Below are positions 1,647 through 52,595 of a stretch of 64,000 nt of DNA, in pieces. The number at the start of each line of letters is the position of its first letter. Position 1 is the stretch's first letter. The translations under genes were made by a program, and so were the position numbers. Source of the DNA: a virus; the IMG/VR virus record IMGVR_UViG_3300036770_006893, positions 160,358 through 224,357 of that record; one strand, given 5' to 3'. The notes beneath the pieces are model-generated. The model saw nothing but the letters and a program-made list of their open reading frames with translations. It did not search any database and had not been told where the DNA came from.

Positions 1647-4600
1647 TTAAATATCCCAACCCGCCTGTCTAAGATTAACTAATGCTTGCGCACCAGGAAT
1701 AGTTCTTGCGATTATCGTACCACGACTACTAGTACGCACTCTAATTTTTGTATTAGCAGTATAATTGTACTCGAACGCAGAACTTGCTGGCCTGGGTGTT
1801 GTGAAATAAGTAGAGAATAATGATTTATTTTGATCCCATTTGATTAACAGATTGTCCAAGTCACTGCCCGGTAAATACAAATCGCTCAGTAAAGCAGGGA
1901 GAATCCAATCGTCTGTTCCCAGAATACTAAAGTCTGCCGCATCCTTAAGACTACTAGCATTCCATCTAGATAATTTTGTTGTGTATCCGGTAAGCCTAAA
2001 CATATCTCGCATACTTATAACATTAGAAACATTCCAATTATTGATATCTGTTGTGAAAGCACCAGCATTATAAAACATGCTATTCATATTTGTAACTTGA
2101 GAAGTATCCCAATTGCTTATATTTCCTCTAAAGCTTACAGCCGACTCAAACATAGAACTCATGTTTGTAACTTTACCGGTATTCCAAGAATCTAGTGTAT
2201 CGCCGGTAAATGCCCGAGCGTCTTGAAACATCCTCGACATATTTGTAACATTGCTGGTATCCCACAGGGATAACGGAATATTAAATCTTACACATCCTCG
2301 AAACATGTTATTCATATCATTTATGCTCGATGTGTCCCAGCTCATAACATTAGGGTCATTGAAAGTAGTACATAATGGTAGTTGTATGTGTTCGGCCTTT
2401 GGAATATAATCTGGAACAGAATTGAGGAGTGGTAAAGAGTCTAAAGTTATTCTCTTAAGCGAACTTATCCAAGAAGATATTCCCGTAACACCGCCTGCTA
2501 CACTCGATGTGGGAGTAGAGGTAAAGCTATCAGCAATGACTACATCCGTAGTATTAGTATGATTAATTGGAGTAATTTTAATAGATCCAGTTTTATTCCT
2601 TGCAGTAACCACACTAGGTCTTCTGTCGGTAAAGTTAATAACTAGCCTATGTTTGCCATCAAAGAATACTGTTCCAACTACCCCATCCTGCTGAGTTCCG
2701 CCCTCTACTAAGTACCAGCTGGGCTCCGACGCGTCTATAGTAATCGTTATAGCCATCGTACTAGAATTAATTAGGGTAGAATAATTATGGCCATAATCTA
2801 TAATTAAGGGGCTTATTACTGAGTCAGGTGGTATTGGAGAAACACTAACGCTTGGACTAACAGTAGGACTGATGGTTTGTGTTGGTGTTGCTGTTGCGCT
2901 AACGCTAACGCTAACGCTTGGAGTGGGCGTCATGCTGTGTGTTGGCGTTAGTGTTGGAGTCATGGTTTGCGTTGGTGTTGGAGATCTCGATGGCAATGGT
3001 GTTGGTGTTACTGTTGCGCTCACGCTATTGGTTGGCGTTACTGTTCTTGTTACAGTCGGCGATACTGTTATACTTGGACTAACTGTTTGGCTAACCGTAA
3101 CCGTGGGTGTGGTCGTGGGTGTAGTAGTTGGACTATTAGTTATTGTTGGCGTGGGCGTAGGAGTTCTTGTACTAACGGGAGTTGGAGAAGGAGTTGGGGT
3201 GCATTGTGCTGCACACTTTAATGCAATGTAGTCTGTGCTTGTGGCGCCGGTTGATTCTCTAGTTAATCTAATAAAAGCATTAACATTTACATTACCATTC
3301 AGGAGGGCTAAAGATGTTAATCTAGCATTATTTGCCACATAAACGTGGCCGCCAGCAGGATAAAATGAAACATTGCTAGAATCACTACCAAATCTAAAAT
3401 AGTACTTTTCTTTAGAAATATTATTAGTACTAGACAAGTCATCTATATAACTATCTGGTAAATAATTTTTAATATCTACCATAATTGGTATATATTGTTT
3501 ACATCCATTTCCAGAAACTTCTATTTGACGATTAGAAGGAGCAACAAACTCTACATCTGTTACAAATTCCTTGGAATAGCATTTGTTGCATTTTAATAAA
3601 GACTCAGACCAAGCAATACCACAATTTGGTTGAGATGCTTTTGCTATATTGAAACGTAATATATTATAGATTTTACTAAAATCTTTAGTTTTTTCAGAAA
3701 CTGGTGGTAGATTAAAATTAGTGTTTTTATCATTGACAAATGTAAAGGTGGATGATATTGTATGAGTATCGCCATTTGCAATGAACACATTATCTTTATC
3801 GGATATATGAGCTGGCCAATTACTGTCGGTGGAATCAAAGAAATACGAATATGATGTATTTTTAGATAGTCCAGTTACCACAACATCAACCACAGCATGA
3901 TCACCCTCAAATTGAGACAAATCAATATTATTAGTCATAGATAATATTTTAGGGCATTTATTGTACTGTTCTTTAGCGTCATGGCATGAGTCGCACTGTA
4001 CAGTAAAGATATGATCAACTTTTTCTGGACATAAAGTTTGGATATTTTTAGCATTTCCCGAAGAATCAGATAAAACAGGCTGTGGAGCATCATGGGATTG
4101 GGTGGGATATGTCCAATAGGCGGCTAGTTCTGAATCATAAAATGCCGCCTTGTACCATTCGTTGTGAGATGGAATAAAATATTTTGCATCAAAATTTCTG
4201 TATATTTGGTTATCAAATATTATATTGCGTAAATCATATGCTCCGACTAGTAGTTTATCATTGATAGTAGCAGGATCGTATACTCTAATATTAACGTCAA
4301 AAGACCCGAAGTTATCTTCAGTACATCTGACATCGTTTATGCCTAGGTATAGTCGTCCAGAAATTTCTGGGTTATACCTACCGCCAGTACCTATTTCAAA
4401 AATAGTTCCATTATCTCCTATTTTTCCAACCAAAGCAGCCACTGGTATACTTACTGCTTGAGGAACATCAAAGCCACAAGTTGCGGAAGCGAGTTCTCCT
4501 AAATTAACACCCTCTGGTCCTGTCCATTGGTTTATATCAGTAACATCTGTAAACTTAATTGTCCCAGACGCTTGTATCTCAACAATAGAGTCGGGATGTA

Positions 4601-7283
4601 AGTCTATATTGGAATCAACCCAATCTTGAGCTATAGAATTATTTGGTACATTTTCATATATATCCCATCCTTTATTATTGTGTAACCAATTGCAGTATTT
4701 TGCGGCTCTAATCCAGGAGATAAAATTAGCAGGTTTATTGCTCATTAACGGTTTAATTACATATCTTTCTCCAAAGTTTTTGCATGAATCTAAGGCTATG
4801 CCTCCTGTATGATGGTTCGCCATTCTGTAATCATACAAATCAAGATTATTTTCACCCAGAGGATCAACAGTATTTAAATAGTCGCAGTATTCTTGATTAG
4901 TTAATAAATTTTGTTGTATATAATAACTATAGTATACGCTACCAAGATTACAACTTTCTGGGCTTGGGTCGTTAATATTTCCTTCGTTTTCTATTATAAT
5001 AAAATTATTATAATTGTCTGGATTTTCATATGAAGCAATTCTTAGACCAAATCCTCCGTCGTCAAAAACAGAAAAAATATCATGGTTTTTAAATATGTGC
5101 TTACTAAGAGCAAGACTATCGCTATCTAGCCAGCTACCACCACGTAAAATTTTATGATTAGGTTTATTGTCTGGGCTAGTATCTGTCCATTCGTATAACT
5201 GACCGGCCATATCATAGATACCATATTTTGATGGCCTTCCATTAAGGCCGATTGTTGTTAATCCAGCATTACCACCCCATACGGCCCTTTCTGCGTAATT
5301 ACATGAATTATTATCTAATTCTTTGTTGCTATTAAGAGACAGCTTAATAACAGAATAAATATTTTTATCATTACTGATAAGCTTTGATAGATTAGCTTGT
5401 TGAATAAACACATCATCAAAACCAAATTCTATAACCCCAGCGATTTCTGATGTTTGGTCATGTCTATTTGTGATTATTCCAGATAAGGGATAGATTGAAC
5501 ACGGGGCAGAAGCGTCCACAGATTCAAAAGAGTAAGAATAATTATCTAAAAGCCCGGATAGTGATATATTGAACGGGATCATTAATCCTGTAGATATAAT
5601 TAAATTATCAGAATTAATACCAGAAATATTGATATTTGGACATATGTTGGTTTCACAAAGGATTTTTGGATCTGCCTCTAAGCATCTGGGTATATGTATA
5701 TCTTTATCTGGGTATTCACGAGTTATAAAATAATAGGATTCGCCAGGTTCTAGTTCAGATAAGGAGCTGTATGGATTAGGTACAAATGCATTACCAGATG
5801 GTAATACCCAAAAAATTGCAGTATTATCATCTATACTTTTTGTACTATATATAGTAGAAATATTGTCTATAAAATTGTGCCATAGTTGATATTGTTTTTC
5901 TCCAGGCTGAAAAACCTTATCTCCACATTTAGGCTCAAGTAAAGATAGTTTATCACTACCAAGATATGTTTTAATATTAAACATCGATTCTAGAATCATG
6001 TTATTAATATTATCTACTTGTGGCGCCGTAAATATTGATGGGGTGGGTGTGTTACTTGGGGTTGTGGTTATTGTTGGTGTTACTGTGGGAGTTACTGATC
6101 TTGTTGGCGTTGGAGTTTTTGTGGGTGTTTTTGTTGGACTTATTGTATTTGTGGGAGTACTTGTTGAGGTTGGGGTTGTAGTAACAGTAGTAGTGACTGT
6201 TGGGGTTGGGGTTAGTGTTGGTGTGATGCTGCTAGTTGGGGTGTGGGTTGGAGTAGTTGTAGGTGTGGTTGTTATGGTCGGAGTTGTTGTTGGAGTAAGA
6301 CTAACAGACAAAGATTGTGTAGGAGATAAGGTTGGAGTTACTGTATTTGTTGGAGTAGTAGTTGGAGTTAGGCTTGGTGTCAATGTAGGGGTGGGACTAG
6401 GAAAAATATTATTTACTGGTCCATCACCTAATATGTTCGATATAACGCATGATGGGTCTGTATCGTATTGCGTAGCATATAACCAATATCCACTATTTAA
6501 TCCGTCAGCTTTATAGTATGCTGATTTATACCATTCATTTTCTGAAGATATAGCATATTTAGCATTTGGGTTTCTAGTTATAGACAATATATTAGTGCCA
6601 TTAGTTAAATCATATGCGCCCGATTCTGTATCTCCGAAATCATTATGAAGCCAATTCGCCATCCTTGCGGCACAAAACCAGTCAACATAATTTACTGGCT
6701 TATTTGACATATTATTTTTAACTATATATTTTGATCCAACAGGATTGCTAGGAACATAAATAATACCTCCTCTAAAATTATTTGTCATATCTATAGAATA
6801 TGTATTATACAGATTTTGGCCGCTAGGATCTGTGTTGTTCAAAAATTCGACATATTCTTGATTAGTGACAGGATGTATCATGATGTGATAATCATAAGAT
6901 ACTGATCCTTTTGAGTTTGTGTCGGCTTCATTACCAGAGTCGTTTATCCCTACAAAAGAACCAAAAATAGAACCAATTGATAAATGTACTAATCTAAAAC
7001 CTATATTAAATGATTTCGTACTAGCGGAACTATTGATAGAAAAATTAGAAGATAAAACCGAAGTGGTTGTTGAGTTCCAGGCTCCTCCTCTAAGAATTTT
7101 ATTATAATTGCCTTGATTTTCTATGGTATTTTCATTCCATTCCCAAACATTTCCGGATTGATCTCTTGTCCCGTATGCACTAGTGCCACCATTTGTACCT
7201 ACTGAGGTAATATTACCGTTTTGTAGATTCCATCTAGCACAATTATTAAAATTGGCAGTATTACTACCTTTTGGAAAAGCCAT
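1647..7283 (-). CDS. Giant multidomain tail fibre: permuted SUMF1 domains, LecA-like lectin, Pro/Thr stalks, BspA-like repeats
   Basis: 1878 residues. In order: the C-terminal half of a SUMF1/FGE-like domain (about 28-100; GNVWEW, LRGGAW, GFRL), then its N-terminal half (127-280; VTNQEY, KPVNYVDW, ENEWYKSAYY); a Pro/Thr stalk (about 293-425); a structural region with Ig-like parts (425-650); a second C-half (about 655-750; GQLYEW, LRGGSW) and N-half (780-1070) with a LecA/PA-IL-like lectin inserted (about 890-1005; ALVGKIGDNG, SGRLYLGINDV); a second Pro/Thr stalk (about 1360-1485); then BspA-like/DUF285 repeats (about 1645-1785; WDTSNVTNM, MFQDA). FGE catalysis is unlikely; the SUMF1 fold is lectin-like and probably serves as a binding head. 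Likely a host-surface adhesin of the virion. The permuted order and the inserted lectin are unusual. Confidence 0.85.
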   Translation of the reverse strand: MAFPKGSNTANFNNCARWNLQNGNITSVGTNGGTSAYGTRDQSGNVWEWNENTIENQGNYNKILRGGAWNSTTTSVLSSNFSINSSASTKSFNIGFRLVHLSIGSIFGSFVGINDSGNEADTNSKGSVSYDYHIMIHPVTNQEYVEFLNNTDPSGQNLYNTYSIDMTNNFRGGIIYVPSNPVGSKYIVKNNMSNKPVNYVDWFCAARMANWLHNDFGDTESGAYDLTNGTNILSITRNPNAKYAISSENEWYKSAYYKADGLNSGYWLYATQYDTDPSCVISNILGDGPVNNIFPSPTPTLTPSLTPTTTPTNTVTPTLSPTQSLSVSLTPTTTPTITTTPTTTPTHTPTSSITPTLTPTPTVTTTVTTTPTSTSTPTNTISPTKTPTKTPTPTRSVTPTVTPTITTTPSNTPTPSIFTAPQVDNINNMILESMFNIKTYLGSDKLSLLEPKCGDKVFQPGEKQYQLWHNFIDNISTIYSTKSIDDNTAIFWVLPSGNAFVPNPYSSLSELEPGESYYFITREYPDKDIHIPRCLEADPKILCETNICPNINISGINSDNLIISTGLMIPFNISLSGLLDNYSYSFESVDASAPCSIYPLSGIITNRHDQTSEIAGVIEFGFDDVFIQQANLSKLISNDKNIYSVIKLSLNSNKELDNNSCNYAERAVWGGNAGLTTIGLNGRPSKYGIYDMAGQLYEWTDTSPDNKPNHKILRGGSWLDSDSLALSKHIFKNHDIFSVFDDGGFGLRIASYENPDNYNNFIIIENEGNINDPSPESCNLGSVYYSYYIQQNLLTNQEYCDYLNTVDPLGENNLDLYDYRMANHHTGGIALDSCKNFGERYVIKPLMSNKPANFISWIRAAKYCNWLHNNKGWDIYENVPNNSIAQDWVDSNIDLHPDSIVEIQASGTIKFTDVTDINQWTGPEGVNLGELASATCGFDVPQAVSIPVAALVGKIGDNGTIFEIGTGGRYNPEISGRLYLGINDVRCTEDNFGSFDVNIRVYDPATINDKLLVGAYDLRNIIFDNQIYRNFDAKYFIPSHNEWYKAAFYDSELAAYWTYPTQSHDAPQPVLSDSSGNAKNIQTLCPEKVDHIFTVQCDSCHDAKEQYNKCPKILSMTNNIDLSQFEGDHAVVDVVVTGLSKNTSYSYFFDSTDSNWPAHISDKDNVFIANGDTHTISSTFTFVNDKNTNFNLPPVSEKTKDFSKIYNILRFNIAKASQPNCGIAWSESLLKCNKCYSKEFVTDVEFVAPSNRQIEVSGNGCKQYIPIMVDIKNYLPDSYIDDLSSTNNISKEKYYFRFGSDSSNVSFYPAGGHVYVANNARLTSLALLNGNVNVNAFIRLTRESTGATSTDYIALKCAAQCTPTPSPTPVSTRTPTPTPTITNSPTTTPTTTPTVTVSQTVSPSITVSPTVTRTVTPTNSVSATVTPTPLPSRSPTPTQTMTPTLTPTHSMTPTPSVSVSVSATATPTQTISPTVSPSVSVSPIPPDSVISPLIIDYGHNYSTLINSSTMAITITIDASEPSWYLVEGGTQQDGVVGTVFFDGKHRLVINFTDRRPSVVTARNKTGSIKITPINHTNTTDVVIADSFTSTPTSSVAGGVTGISSWISSLKRITLDSLPLLNSVPDYIPKAEHIQLPLCTTFNDPNVMSWDTSSINDMNNMFRGCVRFNIPLSLWDTSNVTNMSRMFQDARAFTGDTLDSWNTGKVTNMSSMFESAVSFRGNISNWDTSQVTNMNSMFYNAGAFTTDINNWNVSNVISMRDMFRLTGYTTKLSRWNASSLKDAADFSILGTDDWILPALLSDLYLPGSDLDNLLIKWDQNKSLFSTYFTTPRPASSAFEYNYTANTKIRVRTSSRGTIIARTIPGAQALVNLRQAGWDI
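2830..3210 (-). repeat. Degenerate Pro/Thr-coding repeat (stalk 2)
   Basis: Short tandem codon pattern giving TPTPT/TPSVSVS on the minus strand, inside the giant fibre gene. The plus strand of the same stretch reads as Val/Gly-rich open frames, which are shadows. Probably an extended, glycosylatable linker; prone to slippage and length variation. Confidence 0.85.
6030..6410 (-). repeat. Degenerate Pro/Thr-coding repeat (stalk 1)
   Basis: Same type of TPT/TPS repeat, separating the first SUMF1-like head from the following structural region of the giant fibre. The plus-strand Val/Gly-rich frame is an artefact of codon composition. Confidence 0.85.
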
Positions 7284-7350
7284 ATTTGGTCCTATTAAAT
7301 TTTTATGTGATATATTGATTTACACCAATGTTTTAGGTCGTAATTAATTT

Positions 7351-7767
7351 TTATGAGCATATTGGTATCAATAAAGCCTTATCATCAGGAGCGCATTGCT
7401 CAAAAATAACTTCATCAGTAGAAGGGTCTATAATTTGTATTTTGGCTATGCCTCTATGTACAGAGCCAGGGCTTGGGATGCCAACGAGTTCTATTTTATA
7501 TTTAGCATCTTGCGAAGCTGTGCCAGCGGGTAATATTATTCTAGATTCTCTATATCCACCATCTGATGCATTATTTAAATCAATTTCTCCAACTTCGTTG
7601 GAATTAATATAAACATCAAATCTTGCTCTATTGCACCTATGACCACCGGAACATACCGATGGATCATAGCTTACTTTTAATACAAAAGAACTGATATCTT
7701 CGTATGCAACGCACGGTGGAGGAGGTTCTGGATCTGGGAAGTCGATACAAGAATAGTCATCGGTCAT
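7351..7767 (-). CDS. Small virion-associated protein, unknown
   Basis: 138 residues. A Pro-rich N-terminus (PDPEPPPP) is followed by a compact, beta-rich, probably Ig- or jelly-roll-like region with five cysteines and a C-terminal CAPDDKALLIPICS. I do not recognise the family. It lies between two fibre genes, 12 nt from the upstream one, so a structural or chaperone role in the fibre module is inferred. Nothing enzymatic is visible. Confidence 0.7.
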   Translation of the reverse strand: MTDDYSCIDFPDPEPPPPCVAYEDISSFVLKVSYDPSVCSGGHRCNRARFDVYINSNEVGEIDLNNASDGGYRESRIILPAGTASQDAKYKIELVGIPSPGSVHRGIAKIQIIDPSTDEVIFEQCAPDDKALLIPICS

Positions 7768-7779
7768 AATAGAATTCCT

Positions 7780-8979
7780 TTAAGAACATATAGGCTGCTT
7801 ATTAAATGTTGATACTATCCATCTTATCCATCTTTCAGAATTGCACAGTATGCGTCTTGTTGTCAATCCATTATTTTTAGCTATGGTGAAATATTCTGAT
7901 ACTCCATCTTTTACCGAAGACCAGCCGAGAGAAGGGCTATCATCGACAAATACATTAACCTGAGAAGAGGGATTGATGTCACCAAAAGCTTCTTTTATTT
8001 TTTCGTTTATCCAATTCCCAGTCAATGGCTCATTATTTATTATACAAGCGGGGACATTTCTAGACGATGGTATTATTCTAGAATCTGGTATTGGCATCTG
8101 GTATCCGTCTGGCACATTAATATATGGATATAATGGTAAAATAGTACATTGTTGTTTGATAAAAGATCTTACATGAAATATTAAAATTTTATTTACGTCT
8201 ATAGCTTTAAGGCTGTCCAATAATTTAAAATCATCCATGTCCTGATACCAGTATATATTAGGGGTACCATATGGGGATTGATTAACATATCCAAAAATAT
8301 TTGGTGCTGATGGATATAAAGACTCGTCAGCAAAAATAATACAATAATCATCAAAGCCTATGCCTGCTTCTGGAGGCTGTGGGGGAGGGGGCAGAACAGG
8401 AGGATCTAATGCCTTACACACAGTATTTGAGTACTGATTTGGCGATCCAGGACCACAACAATCTGTTCCGCCAACCCTAAAACATATTCTAGAATAATTT
8501 TTATCATTAAAGACATTACCCGGAATAATAACTTGTATATATGTTTTATCGCAAGTTGGTGTTGGTATGGGGGAACATCTCAAAACTAAAACATCATAGG
8601 TTATCAAAGCTCCAACTCTTGTTGTTTTACCACAAATATATGCTGTAGTATCTAAACTAGCACCCTCATACTCAGCAACTATAGATACCTGCTCGCCGAT
8701 GATCCAGTCGTCTATAGGAGAACCGGGATATAACAAGGAATTCGCACCGCGTATAACCTGAAATAAACAATCATCACCTATGCATTTTTTATATGGATCA
8801 TTAAGTTGATCGCTATTATAAGTAACCGCACATGCTACCCAAGAAGACCCAGAGGACAGACCCTGTATTCTGAAGGCGCTTTCAGTAAAAACACAATTAC
8901 ATTCTATTGGGACAAATTTACTAAAGCATGCATTGTCAGAGTAATCACAATATCTCAGCGATTCTTCAGTAGGTATCAT
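7780..8979 (-). CDS. Structural protein of the fibre module, unknown family
   Basis: 399 residues, Cys- and Pro-rich. A hinge at about residues 193-200 (PPVLPPPPQPPE) divides an N-terminal beta-rich half from a C-terminal half. The C-half ends WIRWIVSTFNKQPICS, and the preceding gene product ends similarly in PICS. No signal peptide or catalytic motif is seen. It is cotranscribed with the fibre genes on both sides (18 nt from the upstream gene). Probably a virion protein; the exact role is unknown. Confidence 0.7.
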   Translation of the reverse strand: MIPTEESLRYCDYSDNACFSKFVPIECNCVFTESAFRIQGLSSGSSWVACAVTYNSDQLNDPYKKCIGDDCLFQVIRGANSLLYPGSPIDDWIIGEQVSIVAEYEGASLDTTAYICGKTTRVGALITYDVLVLRCSPIPTPTCDKTYIQVIIPGNVFNDKNYSRICFRVGGTDCCGPGSPNQYSNTVCKALDPPVLPPPPQPPEAGIGFDDYCIIFADESLYPSAPNIFGYVNQSPYGTPNIYWYQDMDDFKLLDSLKAIDVNKILIFHVRSFIKQQCTILPLYPYINVPDGYQMPIPDSRIIPSSRNVPACIINNEPLTGNWINEKIKEAFGDINPSSQVNVFVDDSPSLGWSSVKDGVSEYFTIAKNNGLTTRRILCNSERWIRWIVSTFNKQPICS

Positions 8980-8997
8980 AATTATTACTCACAAAAT

Positions 8998-11658
8998 TTA
9001 CGGAATTAAATTAGTACAAATCGATGGTAGAGTTATATACTGATATGGGCTGCAATCAACCCAAGAGGCATCTGCACGTTGCCAATCTGCAAAACTTACT
9101 TCGTGCTTAATATTAACGTAGTATAGGCCACAATGTAATTCATCTATGCAATTAATATGATTAATAGCTAAATATAATCGACCAGATGCTGCTGCTTTAA
9201 GAGACAGGTCGGATCCTATAAAGAAAGGCGATCCGTTTTCACCAATTTTGCCTATTAGTGATAGGGAAGGTAAGTGTTGAGCTTCTTGTAGTTTGCATGA
9301 AGTTAAATTGTTTGAGATACCATTAGGACCGGATTGTAGAGGAACGGGTGTTGTAACGGTGGATGGGGACAGAACAGACGATGGGTAGTACACGACTCCA
9401 GTAGCCCCAAACTCTAATTCTTCTTCATCTACTATGTCTATAAAAGTATCTTTCCACGAAGGGGTTCTGGCTCCAACATATATATCAATAGATTCTCTTT
9501 CTATAAGTCTGTATTCAACGTTGCAACAACAGCTTGGGTTTCTAAGCATATCTAGTATAAAAATACCTCCGCCATCAGCTAATTTGTCGGTTAGTGTAGC
9601 ATCACAAATTTCTATACTTGGACATTCACAAATAGCGTCTCTTGGGAAGGGCCCATTTTTAAGACTATCTATTAATGGACATACGGGTTGTTTGTTTGAC
9701 TGTGTGGCATATCGATAATATCTCGAATCAATGGGGTTATAGTACGCAGCCTTATACCACTCATTGTCTGTTGGTAAGAAATATTTTGCGTCGTTGTTTC
9801 GCTTAATTAAATGTATATTCCTTGGCGATACATCAGAAGGTATACTATAGGCGCCATCTTCTGTGTCTCCGAAATTATTGTGTAACCAATTACAGTATCT
9901 TATGGCGGTTAGCCAGGTAACAAAATTAACTGGTTTATGGTCCATATTTTGTTTTAGATAGTATTCATATCTATCTTTTAACGGATTGAATCTTCTGATA
10001 ATTCCTCCGTTATTATCATCTTCCATTTCTTGGTGATATAGTCGTAAGTGATCGGAAGATTGATCGAATGCTACAGAATTTAGAAATGCTATAAACTCAT
10101 AGTTAGTTACTTCATACTTATGGATTTTGTAGCTATATTTTACTCTTCCAAAACCAAGCGAACTAGATAGATTGCAAGGCTCGTTTACATCGGCGAAACA
10201 CTTGATATCTAATGGGTTATTATACGATGCTATTCTAAAACCAAATTGTGAAGACACCTGATCAAAATTATTGGAATACCGAGACGATAAGCTAAACGCA
10301 TCGATTTCCATTAAGCTACTAGCATAGGAACCGCCCCTAAGTACTTTATGTAAGGTATTATCTCCTGTTGATTCTGTCCACTCCCAAACATTTCCATTTT
10401 GATCAAAAGTACCATACCCACTCTGTCTACCATTAGTACCTACTGTTGTAACTATAAAAGCATAGTCTGTGGGGTCGCAGTCTATACATCCGGCAAAATT
10501 AATAGAAGATCTAACATCAGGAGATGGACTTGGAGTAGGAGAAACTATTGGACAGTCCGCCGTTGCGCAACCGCAGTTATCGTTTTTTACCACTACAATT
10601 TTAGAATCTTCTAGATGTGTTTCTAGATCAAGTACTCTAATTGATACAGTGGCGCTATCAGATGATTCTAGTCTAGTTAATAAAAGAGTAATGTCTTGAT
10701 TGCCATCGTATTTGGCAACAAATTCTATTTCACTAGGCACGATTTTTGTAATACTATCATAATCATTGGAAAATATGTTGACTTTGTATCTATGAGAAGA
10801 TATTAATGGTCCTATAGATGCCTGTATAATACAATCATTTAATGCTAAATTCGGAGTAATAGAAGGAGTAGGAGATGGGGCAGGGCAAGAGGTTTCGCTA
10901 GGGGTCGGTGTTGGCGTGGCTGTTCTAGTGGGTGTTGGTGTGGGCGTTCTTGTTGGTGTCTTAGTAGGTGTGGCGGTTTGTGTTGGGGTAACGGTCGGAG
11001 TACTAGTTGATGTGCGTGTGGGTGTGTTGCTAAGAGTTTGGGTTGGTGTGATAGTTATGCTAGATGTTGGGGTCAGGCTAGCAGTAAGGCTTACGGTGAT
11101 AGACGGAGTAGGGGTATGAGTCAAAGAAACCGAAGGGGTCGGAGTTTGTGTTGGAGTGGTGGAGGGTGTCGGGTTTGGGGTAGGCGTTACAGAAGCTGTT
11201 ACGCTAGGTGTCGGATTGGGGGTTGGTGTGCATGTTGGGGTTGGGGTGGCAGATACGCTTATACTTATACTAGGAGTCACCGAGACACTCGGGGTAACAG
11301 TAGGGGTGTTAGTTGGCGTTATCGTTGGTGTGGCGGTTGGTGAGGGTGGTGGAGGAATATCCTCAGAAGTTACTTGACCTATCCAGTTACCTGTGCGGGC
11401 ACTAACTACTAACCACCTACTACCATTCCATGCCCAATGACCATTATCGTTTGGAGAACTATAATTAGTTCTGGAATCATTTATGGGGGACCTAGGATCT
11501 ATAAAAGTTATTCGACGCCCTCTTTCGTACTCTATACTATGAAGCTTATTTATTGTAAGCGTATCAAAACGGATAGATCCAGGTGCGTTAGGCTCATAGA
11601 CTGGCCTATTAAAATATGATGTGACCGACCTAAAGCCTACTCGTCTATAAATTGCCAT
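8998..11658 (-). CDS. Tail fibre with Pro/Thr stalk, permuted SUMF1-like domain and LecA-like lectin domain
   Basis: 886 residues. A short N-terminal domain (1-95, with GHWAWNGSRWLV) probably attaches to the virion. It is followed by a long Pro/Thr stalk (about 104-267) and an Ig-like region (270-380). Next comes a SUMF1-like domain in permuted order: C-half at about 405-487 (GNVWEWTES, VLRGGSY, FGFRIASY), then N-half at about 505-660 (YEVTNYEF, KPVNFVTW, DNEWYKAAYY). The C-terminal 170 residues resemble the LecA/PA-IL galactophilic lectin fold (SLIGKIGENG, FFIGSD, SGRLYLAIN). It shares this architecture with the giant fibre downstream, so the two probably arose by duplication. Receptor binding is inferred. 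Confidence 0.85.
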   Translation of the reverse strand: MAIYRRVGFRSVTSYFNRPVYEPNAPGSIRFDTLTINKLHSIEYERGRRITFIDPRSPINDSRTNYSSPNDNGHWAWNGSRWLVVSARTGNWIGQVTSEDIPPPPSPTATPTITPTNTPTVTPSVSVTPSISISVSATPTPTCTPTPNPTPSVTASVTPTPNPTPSTTPTQTPTPSVSLTHTPTPSITVSLTASLTPTSSITITPTQTLSNTPTRTSTSTPTVTPTQTATPTKTPTRTPTPTPTRTATPTPTPSETSCPAPSPTPSITPNLALNDCIIQASIGPLISSHRYKVNIFSNDYDSITKIVPSEIEFVAKYDGNQDITLLLTRLESSDSATVSIRVLDLETHLEDSKIVVVKNDNCGCATADCPIVSPTPSPSPDVRSSINFAGCIDCDPTDYAFIVTTVGTNGRQSGYGTFDQNGNVWEWTESTGDNTLHKVLRGGSYASSLMEIDAFSLSSRYSNNFDQVSSQFGFRIASYNNPLDIKCFADVNEPCNLSSSLGFGRVKYSYKIHKYEVTNYEFIAFLNSVAFDQSSDHLRLYHQEMEDDNNGGIIRRFNPLKDRYEYYLKQNMDHKPVNFVTWLTAIRYCNWLHNNFGDTEDGAYSIPSDVSPRNIHLIKRNNDAKYFLPTDNEWYKAAYYNPIDSRYYRYATQSNKQPVCPLIDSLKNGPFPRDAICECPSIEICDATLTDKLADGGGIFILDMLRNPSCCCNVEYRLIERESIDIYVGARTPSWKDTFIDIVDEEELEFGATGVVYYPSSVLSPSTVTTPVPLQSGPNGISNNLTSCKLQEAQHLPSLSLIGKIGENGSPFFIGSDLSLKAAASGRLYLAINHINCIDELHCGLYYVNIKHEVSFADWQRADASWVDCSPYQYITLPSICTNLIP
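10860..11350 (-). repeat. Degenerate Pro/Thr-coding repeat (stalk of 886-residue fibre)
   Basis: About 490 nt of TPT/TPS/SVS-coding repeats on the minus strand, the longest of the four such stretches in the window. Plus-strand Val/Gly-rich frames here are shadows. Confidence 0.85.
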
Positions 11659-52242: not shown

Positions 52243-52595
52243 TGGACGAGAGGGGAGTCGAACCCCTGTCCTATCATATTTCTAATTACATCTTCTACAA
52301 GTTTATTCTGTTCATAAGTTTTGAGAAAGATTAAAGAACAAACAACATTCATCTTTCCGTACCAACTAGTCTCAGGCTAGAACCCGTTGGCTATTCTAGC
52401 AGCCGAAGGATTTTACGACAATCTTTTGAACGCTACCTTCATCGCTTTCTAAGATTGTTGCTACCTTTTATTAAGCAGCAAGGGCTAACTGAGTATTGCC
52501 AGTTACAGCATTTGGTAGATTTTTAAAGTGGCCTTTCCACCAACCACTACTTGCCAATATAATCTTCTTTATGTAGTCGAAACCTTTACTCGCCC
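52243..52595 (-). ncRNA. ssrA: Phage-encoded tmRNA
   Basis: 353 nt. 5' GGGCGAG pairs with 3' CTCGTCC (one G-T), discriminator A, CCA not encoded. The 5' part GTAAAGGTTTCGACTACATA matches the tmRNA D-arm-like region (TTCGAC). T arm AGGGG-TTCGACT-CCCCT. The tag frame at 52471-52509 ends LALAA. Regions between can form pseudoknots, not resolved by eye. It would rescue stalled ribosomes and tag products for proteolysis in the infected cell. Confidence 0.93.
52471..52509 (-). other. tmRNA proteolysis tag reading frame
   Basis: Codons from the likely resume codon GCT give AVTGNTQLALAA then TAA. The ALAA end is the usual ClpXP/ClpAP recognition end. Confidence 0.88.

Follow-up and report, generated by a model that had tools for sequence, protein, structure and literature searches.

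Reversed halves of FGE-like domains in phage tail proteins point to a circular permutation of the fold

Introduction

The FGE-sulfatase/SUMF1 family (PF03781) includes human FGE, SUMF2, CarF, the C-terminal domain of EgtB and PvdO. In phages, FGE-type domains have been described as receptors diversified by DGRs, and in bacterial conflict systems as effectors (PMC7159879, PMC8195603, PMC3521204). None was reported among 224 jumbo phages (PMC7824862), which may be accounted for by a different sample of phages. In Treponema denticola the FGE-like protein TvpA (2Y3C) is a DGR variable protein, and in Bordetella phage BPP-1 a DGR diversifies Mtd, a tail-fibre receptor binder with a C-type-lectin-like fold (PMC7159879).

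We analysed a viral record of 224,357 bp (IMGVR_UViG_3300036770_006893), including the stretch of 64,000 nucleotides (positions 160,358–224,357) that we call the window. An initial annotation of the window, made from the letters alone, had claimed three SUMF1/FGE-like domains in which the two halves of the domain follow each other in reversed order, and had offered two readings: a consistent circular permutation, or an exchange of chains between neighbouring subunits.

Both halves of these domains are homologous to PF03781 above the Pfam cut-off, and they share with the family the VTN, EWYKAAYY, GNVWEW, RGGSW and GFR motifs and the same set of predicted structural elements. They differ from it in the reversed halves, in their new termini, in lacking the catalytic cysteine pair and in lying inside large phage tail proteins. 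TvpA was the closest solved structure both for a profile of the permuted family and for an ordinary-order control; it shares with the permuted domains a non-catalytic, FGE-like C-type-lectin fold (here predicted) and a variable stretch in the C-half, but it has the ordinary order and is a DGR protein, whereas no reverse transcriptase was found in the phage record or 48 related records. Mtd has the phage tail and the C-type-lectin-like fold in common with these domains, and a gene with an Mtd_N domain adjoins one of ours; unlike them, Mtd is not permuted. The nearest ordinary-order relatives by sequence are secreted FGE-like proteins of Verrucomicrobiota and Planctomycetota (L090–L129), which differ in having the N-half before the C-half wherever both were found. 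A full-text literature search, in which few subscription journals and preprints were covered, returned no report of permuted FGE, SUMF1 or C-type-lectin domains in phages.

Results

The full record was searched with the PF03781 model, which has 255 positions. Two proteins of the window scored far above the cut-off of 23.3 bits: protein A (82.9 bits), the 1878-aa product of an ORF at 1647–7283 on the reverse strand, and protein B (67.7 bits), 886 aa long and encoded at 8998–11658 on the same strand, both as initially annotated. Each domain was matched in separate pieces that ran in the reverse of the model's order. Copy A1 matched model positions 149–254 and then 28–124, copy A2 matched 172–236 and then 36–109 with a marginal further match to 112–138, and copy B matched 168–254 and then 35–138. 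Half-match E-values lay between about 1e-11 and 6e-7; the one exception was the second half of A2 (0.01), which is interrupted by an insert of 142 residues. For protein A as a whole, the Pfam E-values were 3.8e-23 for FGE-sulfatase and 8.8e-43 for DUF285. The reversal claimed for the three domains of the window was thus borne out. The count of three holds for the window, but the whole record has four copies: the fourth lies outside the window in protein C, a tail protein of 1875 aa (about L009:6967–12600), and matched 159–252 and then 34–122.

In none of the four copies did a single N-to-C match span the model. The copies can be aligned over their whole length as they stand, C-half before N-half, and share about 40% identity with copy B. 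Against solved structures, the first ~105 positions of the permuted-family profile fell on the last ~70–110 residues of the FGE, SUMF2 and TvpA chains (positions 13–103 on residues 185–291 of the 294 in TvpA), and nearly always only the first third of the profile matched chains of the FGE family. Read at the level of sequence, the reversed half-matches in four copies, together with these matches to solved chains, demonstrate the order of the halves directly and well beyond chance.

Protein A comprises a permuted domain, a Pro/Thr-rich linker, other domains, the second permuted domain, another Pro/Thr-rich linker and C-terminal DUF285 repeats. In A1, the C-terminal half comes first in the chain (6984–7283, reverse strand like all features below; residues 1–100), with the motifs MAFPKGSNTANFNN..GNVWEW..RGGAW..GFRLVH, and the N-terminal half follows (6414–6971; residues 105–290), with SIFGSFVGIN..VTNQEY..NEWYKSAYY..YATQYDTDP; both are backed by the PF03781 matches and the predicted structure. 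The domain begins at residue 1 and not, as initially annotated, at residue 25, and its new N-terminus is the first residue of the protein. A Pro/Thr-rich linker, read from the translation, lies behind A1 (6030–6413). The DUF285 repeats, a family named from Mycoplasma proteins, lie near the C-terminus (1935–2198).

A2 was delimited by PF03781 matches and by alignment. Its C-terminal half is again first (5028–5306; residues 660–752), followed by the N-terminal half in two parts, one running to NWLHNN (4674–5006; residues 760–870) and the other, only weakly matched by PF03781, carrying GAYDL..NEWYKAAFY..YPTQSHDAP (4068–4247; residues 1013–1072). Between NWLHNN and GAYDL is the insert (4248–4673), which resembles the galactose lectin PA-IL (LecA) (PF07828; E = 2.5e-4, 21.5 bits, 1 bit under the curated cut-off). 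The permuted domain placed at residues 655–1070 by the initial annotation is there, with an inserted lectin-like domain that it had not mentioned. Protein B has a Pro/Thr-rich region, a permuted domain with its C-terminal half (10222–10509; residues 384–479) before its N-terminal half (9673–10206; residues 485–662), and a C-terminal region homologous to the A2 insert (blastp, E = 2e-15).

We predicted the structure of residues 1–305 of protein A with AlphaFold2 in monomer mode, from a family alignment of 97 sequences. The model was one confident, compact unit (pLDDT 93.5, pTM 0.90). As a control we used the ordinary-order domain of a phage protein (L027) that also holds a permuted domain (pLDDT 93.7, pTM 0.92). 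In these two models, the secondary-structure elements of the permuted domain are a rotation of those of the control. Control elements E14–17, E35–38, H44–54 and H66–69 correspond to E110–113, E132–135, H141–151 and H165–168 of the permuted model, and E76–79, E86–89, H103–114 and H163–171 to E174–176, E186–188, H202–213 and H248–256; the last control elements (E238–240, E250–254, E271–274 and E287–289) correspond to those at 47 to 100, ahead of all the others. In Foldseek, which respects chain order, the control matched TvpA (2y3c), CarF, FGE and EgtB over its full length (~310–350 columns and E-values of 1e-10 to 1e-8 for TvpA, CarF and FGE), whereas the permuted model matched only part of SUMF2 and CarF (58–106 columns, weak E-values). 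A search of predicted viral structures for the permuted topology gave no convincing match. The permuted C–N pair is therefore predicted to form a single compact fold; the halves did not fall into separate, unrelated folds, the outcome that the initial annotation had named as contrary to its claim.

Viral contigs were scanned with three queries: an alignment of permuted domains, the N-half of copy B by itself, and an alignment of ordinary-order bacterial domains. For bacterial and archaeal genomes the query was copy B. The order of the halves was then read in every ORF with profiles built for each half. The ordinary-order alignment was added because the first scan ranks permuted matches at the top. 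With that alignment, too, the large phage proteins were permuted, except for ordinary-order domains in L027, L187 and L212 and one nested in L157. These phages therefore do not strictly need the permutation. Removal of near-duplicates left 101 permuted domains, all on environmental phage contigs, and, in ordinary order, 31 domains from bacteria and 30 from the viral collection. Every bacterial ORF in which both halves were found had N then C (31 distinct domains). For the most part, the ordinary domains of the viral collection belong to short proteins encoded on small contigs, and these may be bacterial. Among the PF03781 matches listed in 48 phage records with a permuted domain, only two covered the model as a single match. 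In 50,697 phage records, tblastn found no match for three permuted domains or for an ordinary control; as the control was also without a match, the subfamily is rare in those records, and the result says nothing about permutation. A search for Gp23 (PF07068) as a mark of the T4-type lineage, run without a working positive control, gave no match.

Some proteins had more elaborate arrangements. In L157 (ORF of 3063 aa, residues 854–1396) a loop of a permuted domain holds an ordinary-order FGE domain, and both topologies thus occur in one nested unit. In L158 (1113 aa) an insert of ~300 aa appears to interrupt the permuted C-half between GNVEEY and ALRGGSF. A 1788-aa ORF starting at base 1277 of contig IMGVR_UViG_3300001335_000486 (L247) has the halves C1 C2 C3 N1a C4 N2 N1b N3a C5 N4 N3b N5, an order that can be read as permuted domains set within the loops of further permuted domains.

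In ordinary relatives, YATQSDxxP..NxANY..TxVG..YGTFDQNGNVWEW is uninterrupted. The permuted family has its new N-terminus at NxANYN and its new C-terminus right behind YATQSDxxP, and this main cut site is uniform. The lead-in strand of the ordinary form is kept, behind GFR, and the C-to-N linker between the half-profiles has a median of 2 aa (range −2 to 41). Of the 101 permuted domains, 32 open the ORF or lie close to its start, 23 are C-terminal and 46 internal; many of those at the start begin close to the initiator methionine, as in MSNSANYKNSAIWNNVVGNITTNGTNG. Both halves are present and reversed, the old termini are joined and the new termini lie in one loop, as in a circular permutant. 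Two domains, in L086 (residues 77–373) and L242 (residues 34–345), have a second register, in which the ring is opened at another loop: the EWYKAAFY segment is followed by the stretch that the other permutants cut, the C-half and the remainder of the N-half. Two cut sites on one ring are as circular permutation predicts.

For trees, the halves were rotated into a common order beforehand. On the tree of all 162 rows, which has long branches, the permuted label changed three times, against 49 times in shuffles. Two reduced trees, for which long-branch rows were excluded and the permuted rows were a random sample, each had a single change: a quick tree of 75 rows without the longest branches (support 99), and a careful tree of 82 rows that took in the tail-tip orthologues, where the permuted rows fall on one side of a branch with support 100/98. 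This separation favours one origin, and on the evidence of these trees the permutation seems to have arisen once. Ordinary tandems of the form N-C-N-C occur in bacterial L090 and L094, where C1 and N2 are 12 and 5 aa apart.

The permuted proteins lie among tail genes: the gene for protein C follows one with tape-measure matches, and that for protein A adjoins the fibre gene with the Mtd_N domain. In ten of ten related genomes, a protein with the permuted domain is encoded directly after the tape measure gene, and in nine of the ten it is intact in a single frame. In L257, the C-half starts in one frame (ORF ~4420–6939) and the N-half lies in an overlapping frame (6774–7991), a frameshift that is either real or due to sequencing. 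Protein C is a single long protein in our record (G000) and in G005, and is encoded by two adjacent genes in eight relatives (L248–L255), where the gene is split ~130–180 aa past the permuted domain. Elsewhere in the window, a Clp-protease-like gene (PF00574; 13307–14002) lies a little upstream of fibre genes A and B, and a phage tmRNA gene (52243–52595; tag GNTQLALAA) is accompanied by tRNA-Leu and tRNA-Ile genes.

We took the cysteine positions after RGGS as C336/C341 of human FGE. No cysteine of this active-site pair stood at either position in the permuted (0/97) or the ordinary (0/58) rows. An active FGE enzyme was ruled out because the catalytic cysteines are missing; the domain is therefore not an oxidase. 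The RGG–GFR stretch is the most variable part of the permuted domains (entropy 3.24 v 1.74 elsewhere), and ordinary-order relatives are almost equally variable there (3.02 v 1.79 elsewhere), so the variability is not special to the permuted form. Reverse transcriptase (PF00078) was found neither in our record nor in the 48 records with a permuted domain, which are possibly fragments, and on this ground a role as a DGR target was rejected. Most likely, the permuted domain is a non-catalytic, lectin-like or protein-binding module of putative adhesins at the tail tip and in the tail fibres, with the RGG–GFR stretch as its putative variable face.

Discussion

The best explanation overall, to which we assign a probability of roughly 0.86, is that the FGE-sulfatase (SUMF1/FGE, C-type-lectin-like) fold has truly been circularly permuted in these domains, which serve as non-catalytic tail modules and probably have one origin. 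A short linker would connect the old N- and C-termini, and the break in the chain would fall in the long, irregular loop that runs from the EWYKAAYY/YATQSD segment to the NxANYN..GNVWEW segment. Each C–N pair is predicted to make up one domain within its own chain, and the domains would often sit as beads on Pro/Thr-rich linkers in tail-tip and tail-fibre proteins. Of the two readings in the initial annotation, it is the consistent circular permutation that agrees with the single predicted unit, the rotated elements, the short C-to-N linker and the recurrence of the form in 101 phage domains.

Under the other of those readings, the C-half of one subunit of a trimer would complete the N-half of its neighbour, so that each full FGE fold came from two chains. 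Most phage fibres are trimeric, and domain swapping would preserve the contacts that a permutant makes; but linkers of at most ~40 aa, with a median of 2, are as expected if adjacent old termini were simply joined, the predicted monomer has a high pTM, and single-copy permuted domains are found at N-terminal, internal and C-terminal sites alike. We consider such an exchange quite unlikely, and it is not needed to explain the reversed order. A shifted array, in which the N-half of the first pair in protein A (C-N-404 aa-C-N) would form an ordinary domain with the C-half of the second across the Pro/Thr-rich spacer, leaving C1 and N2 as orphans, could appeal to the bacterial N-C-N-C tandems (L090, L094). 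This is very improbable: most relatives have one C–N pair and no partner across a spacer, the first pair of protein A folds as a unit in AlphaFold2, and the spacer is hundreds of Pro/Thr-rich residues long, as against a C-to-N gap of a few.

There is next to no chance that the order arose in assembly or from a misread frame. The window does come from a metagenome-assembled record, but the same order recurs in continuous frames on scores of separately assembled contigs, which refutes this reading, and orthologous proteins retain it. Somewhat more plausible, though still unlikely, is that phages permuted the fold several times under selection and not in one ancient event. The second register in L086 and L242 and the three label changes on the full tree would fit that history; against it are the uniform main cut site (a start at NxANYN, an end behind YATQSDxxP) and the single branch that divides the permuted rows from the rest in both reduced trees.

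Most likely, the circular permutation arose once and began with the tandem duplication of an ordinary domain, giving N-C-N-C. If the N-half at the front and the C-half at the end were then lost, C1-N2 would remain, the phage form, and duplications would have carried it further, both within single phage tail genes and from one to another; the trees and the ordinary tandems of bacteria are consistent with such a course. More tentatively, one ancient permutation could have anchored the FGE/C-type-lectin module to the fibre by its opposite end, changing the face that it presents and opening its loops to the insertions from which nested adhesins such as L157 and L247 were built.

Variable recognition in phages and bacteria has a standard scaffold in the FGE/C-type-lectin fold. 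Here it has a natural permutant with an apparent single origin, more than 100 copies and ordinary-order cousins that sometimes sit in the same protein. Order-dependent tools detect only half-domains here, so that counts of FGE domains in large phages can come out too low. With such a permutant one can test directly which positions of its termini the fold accepts and for what reason a phage would re-anchor it.
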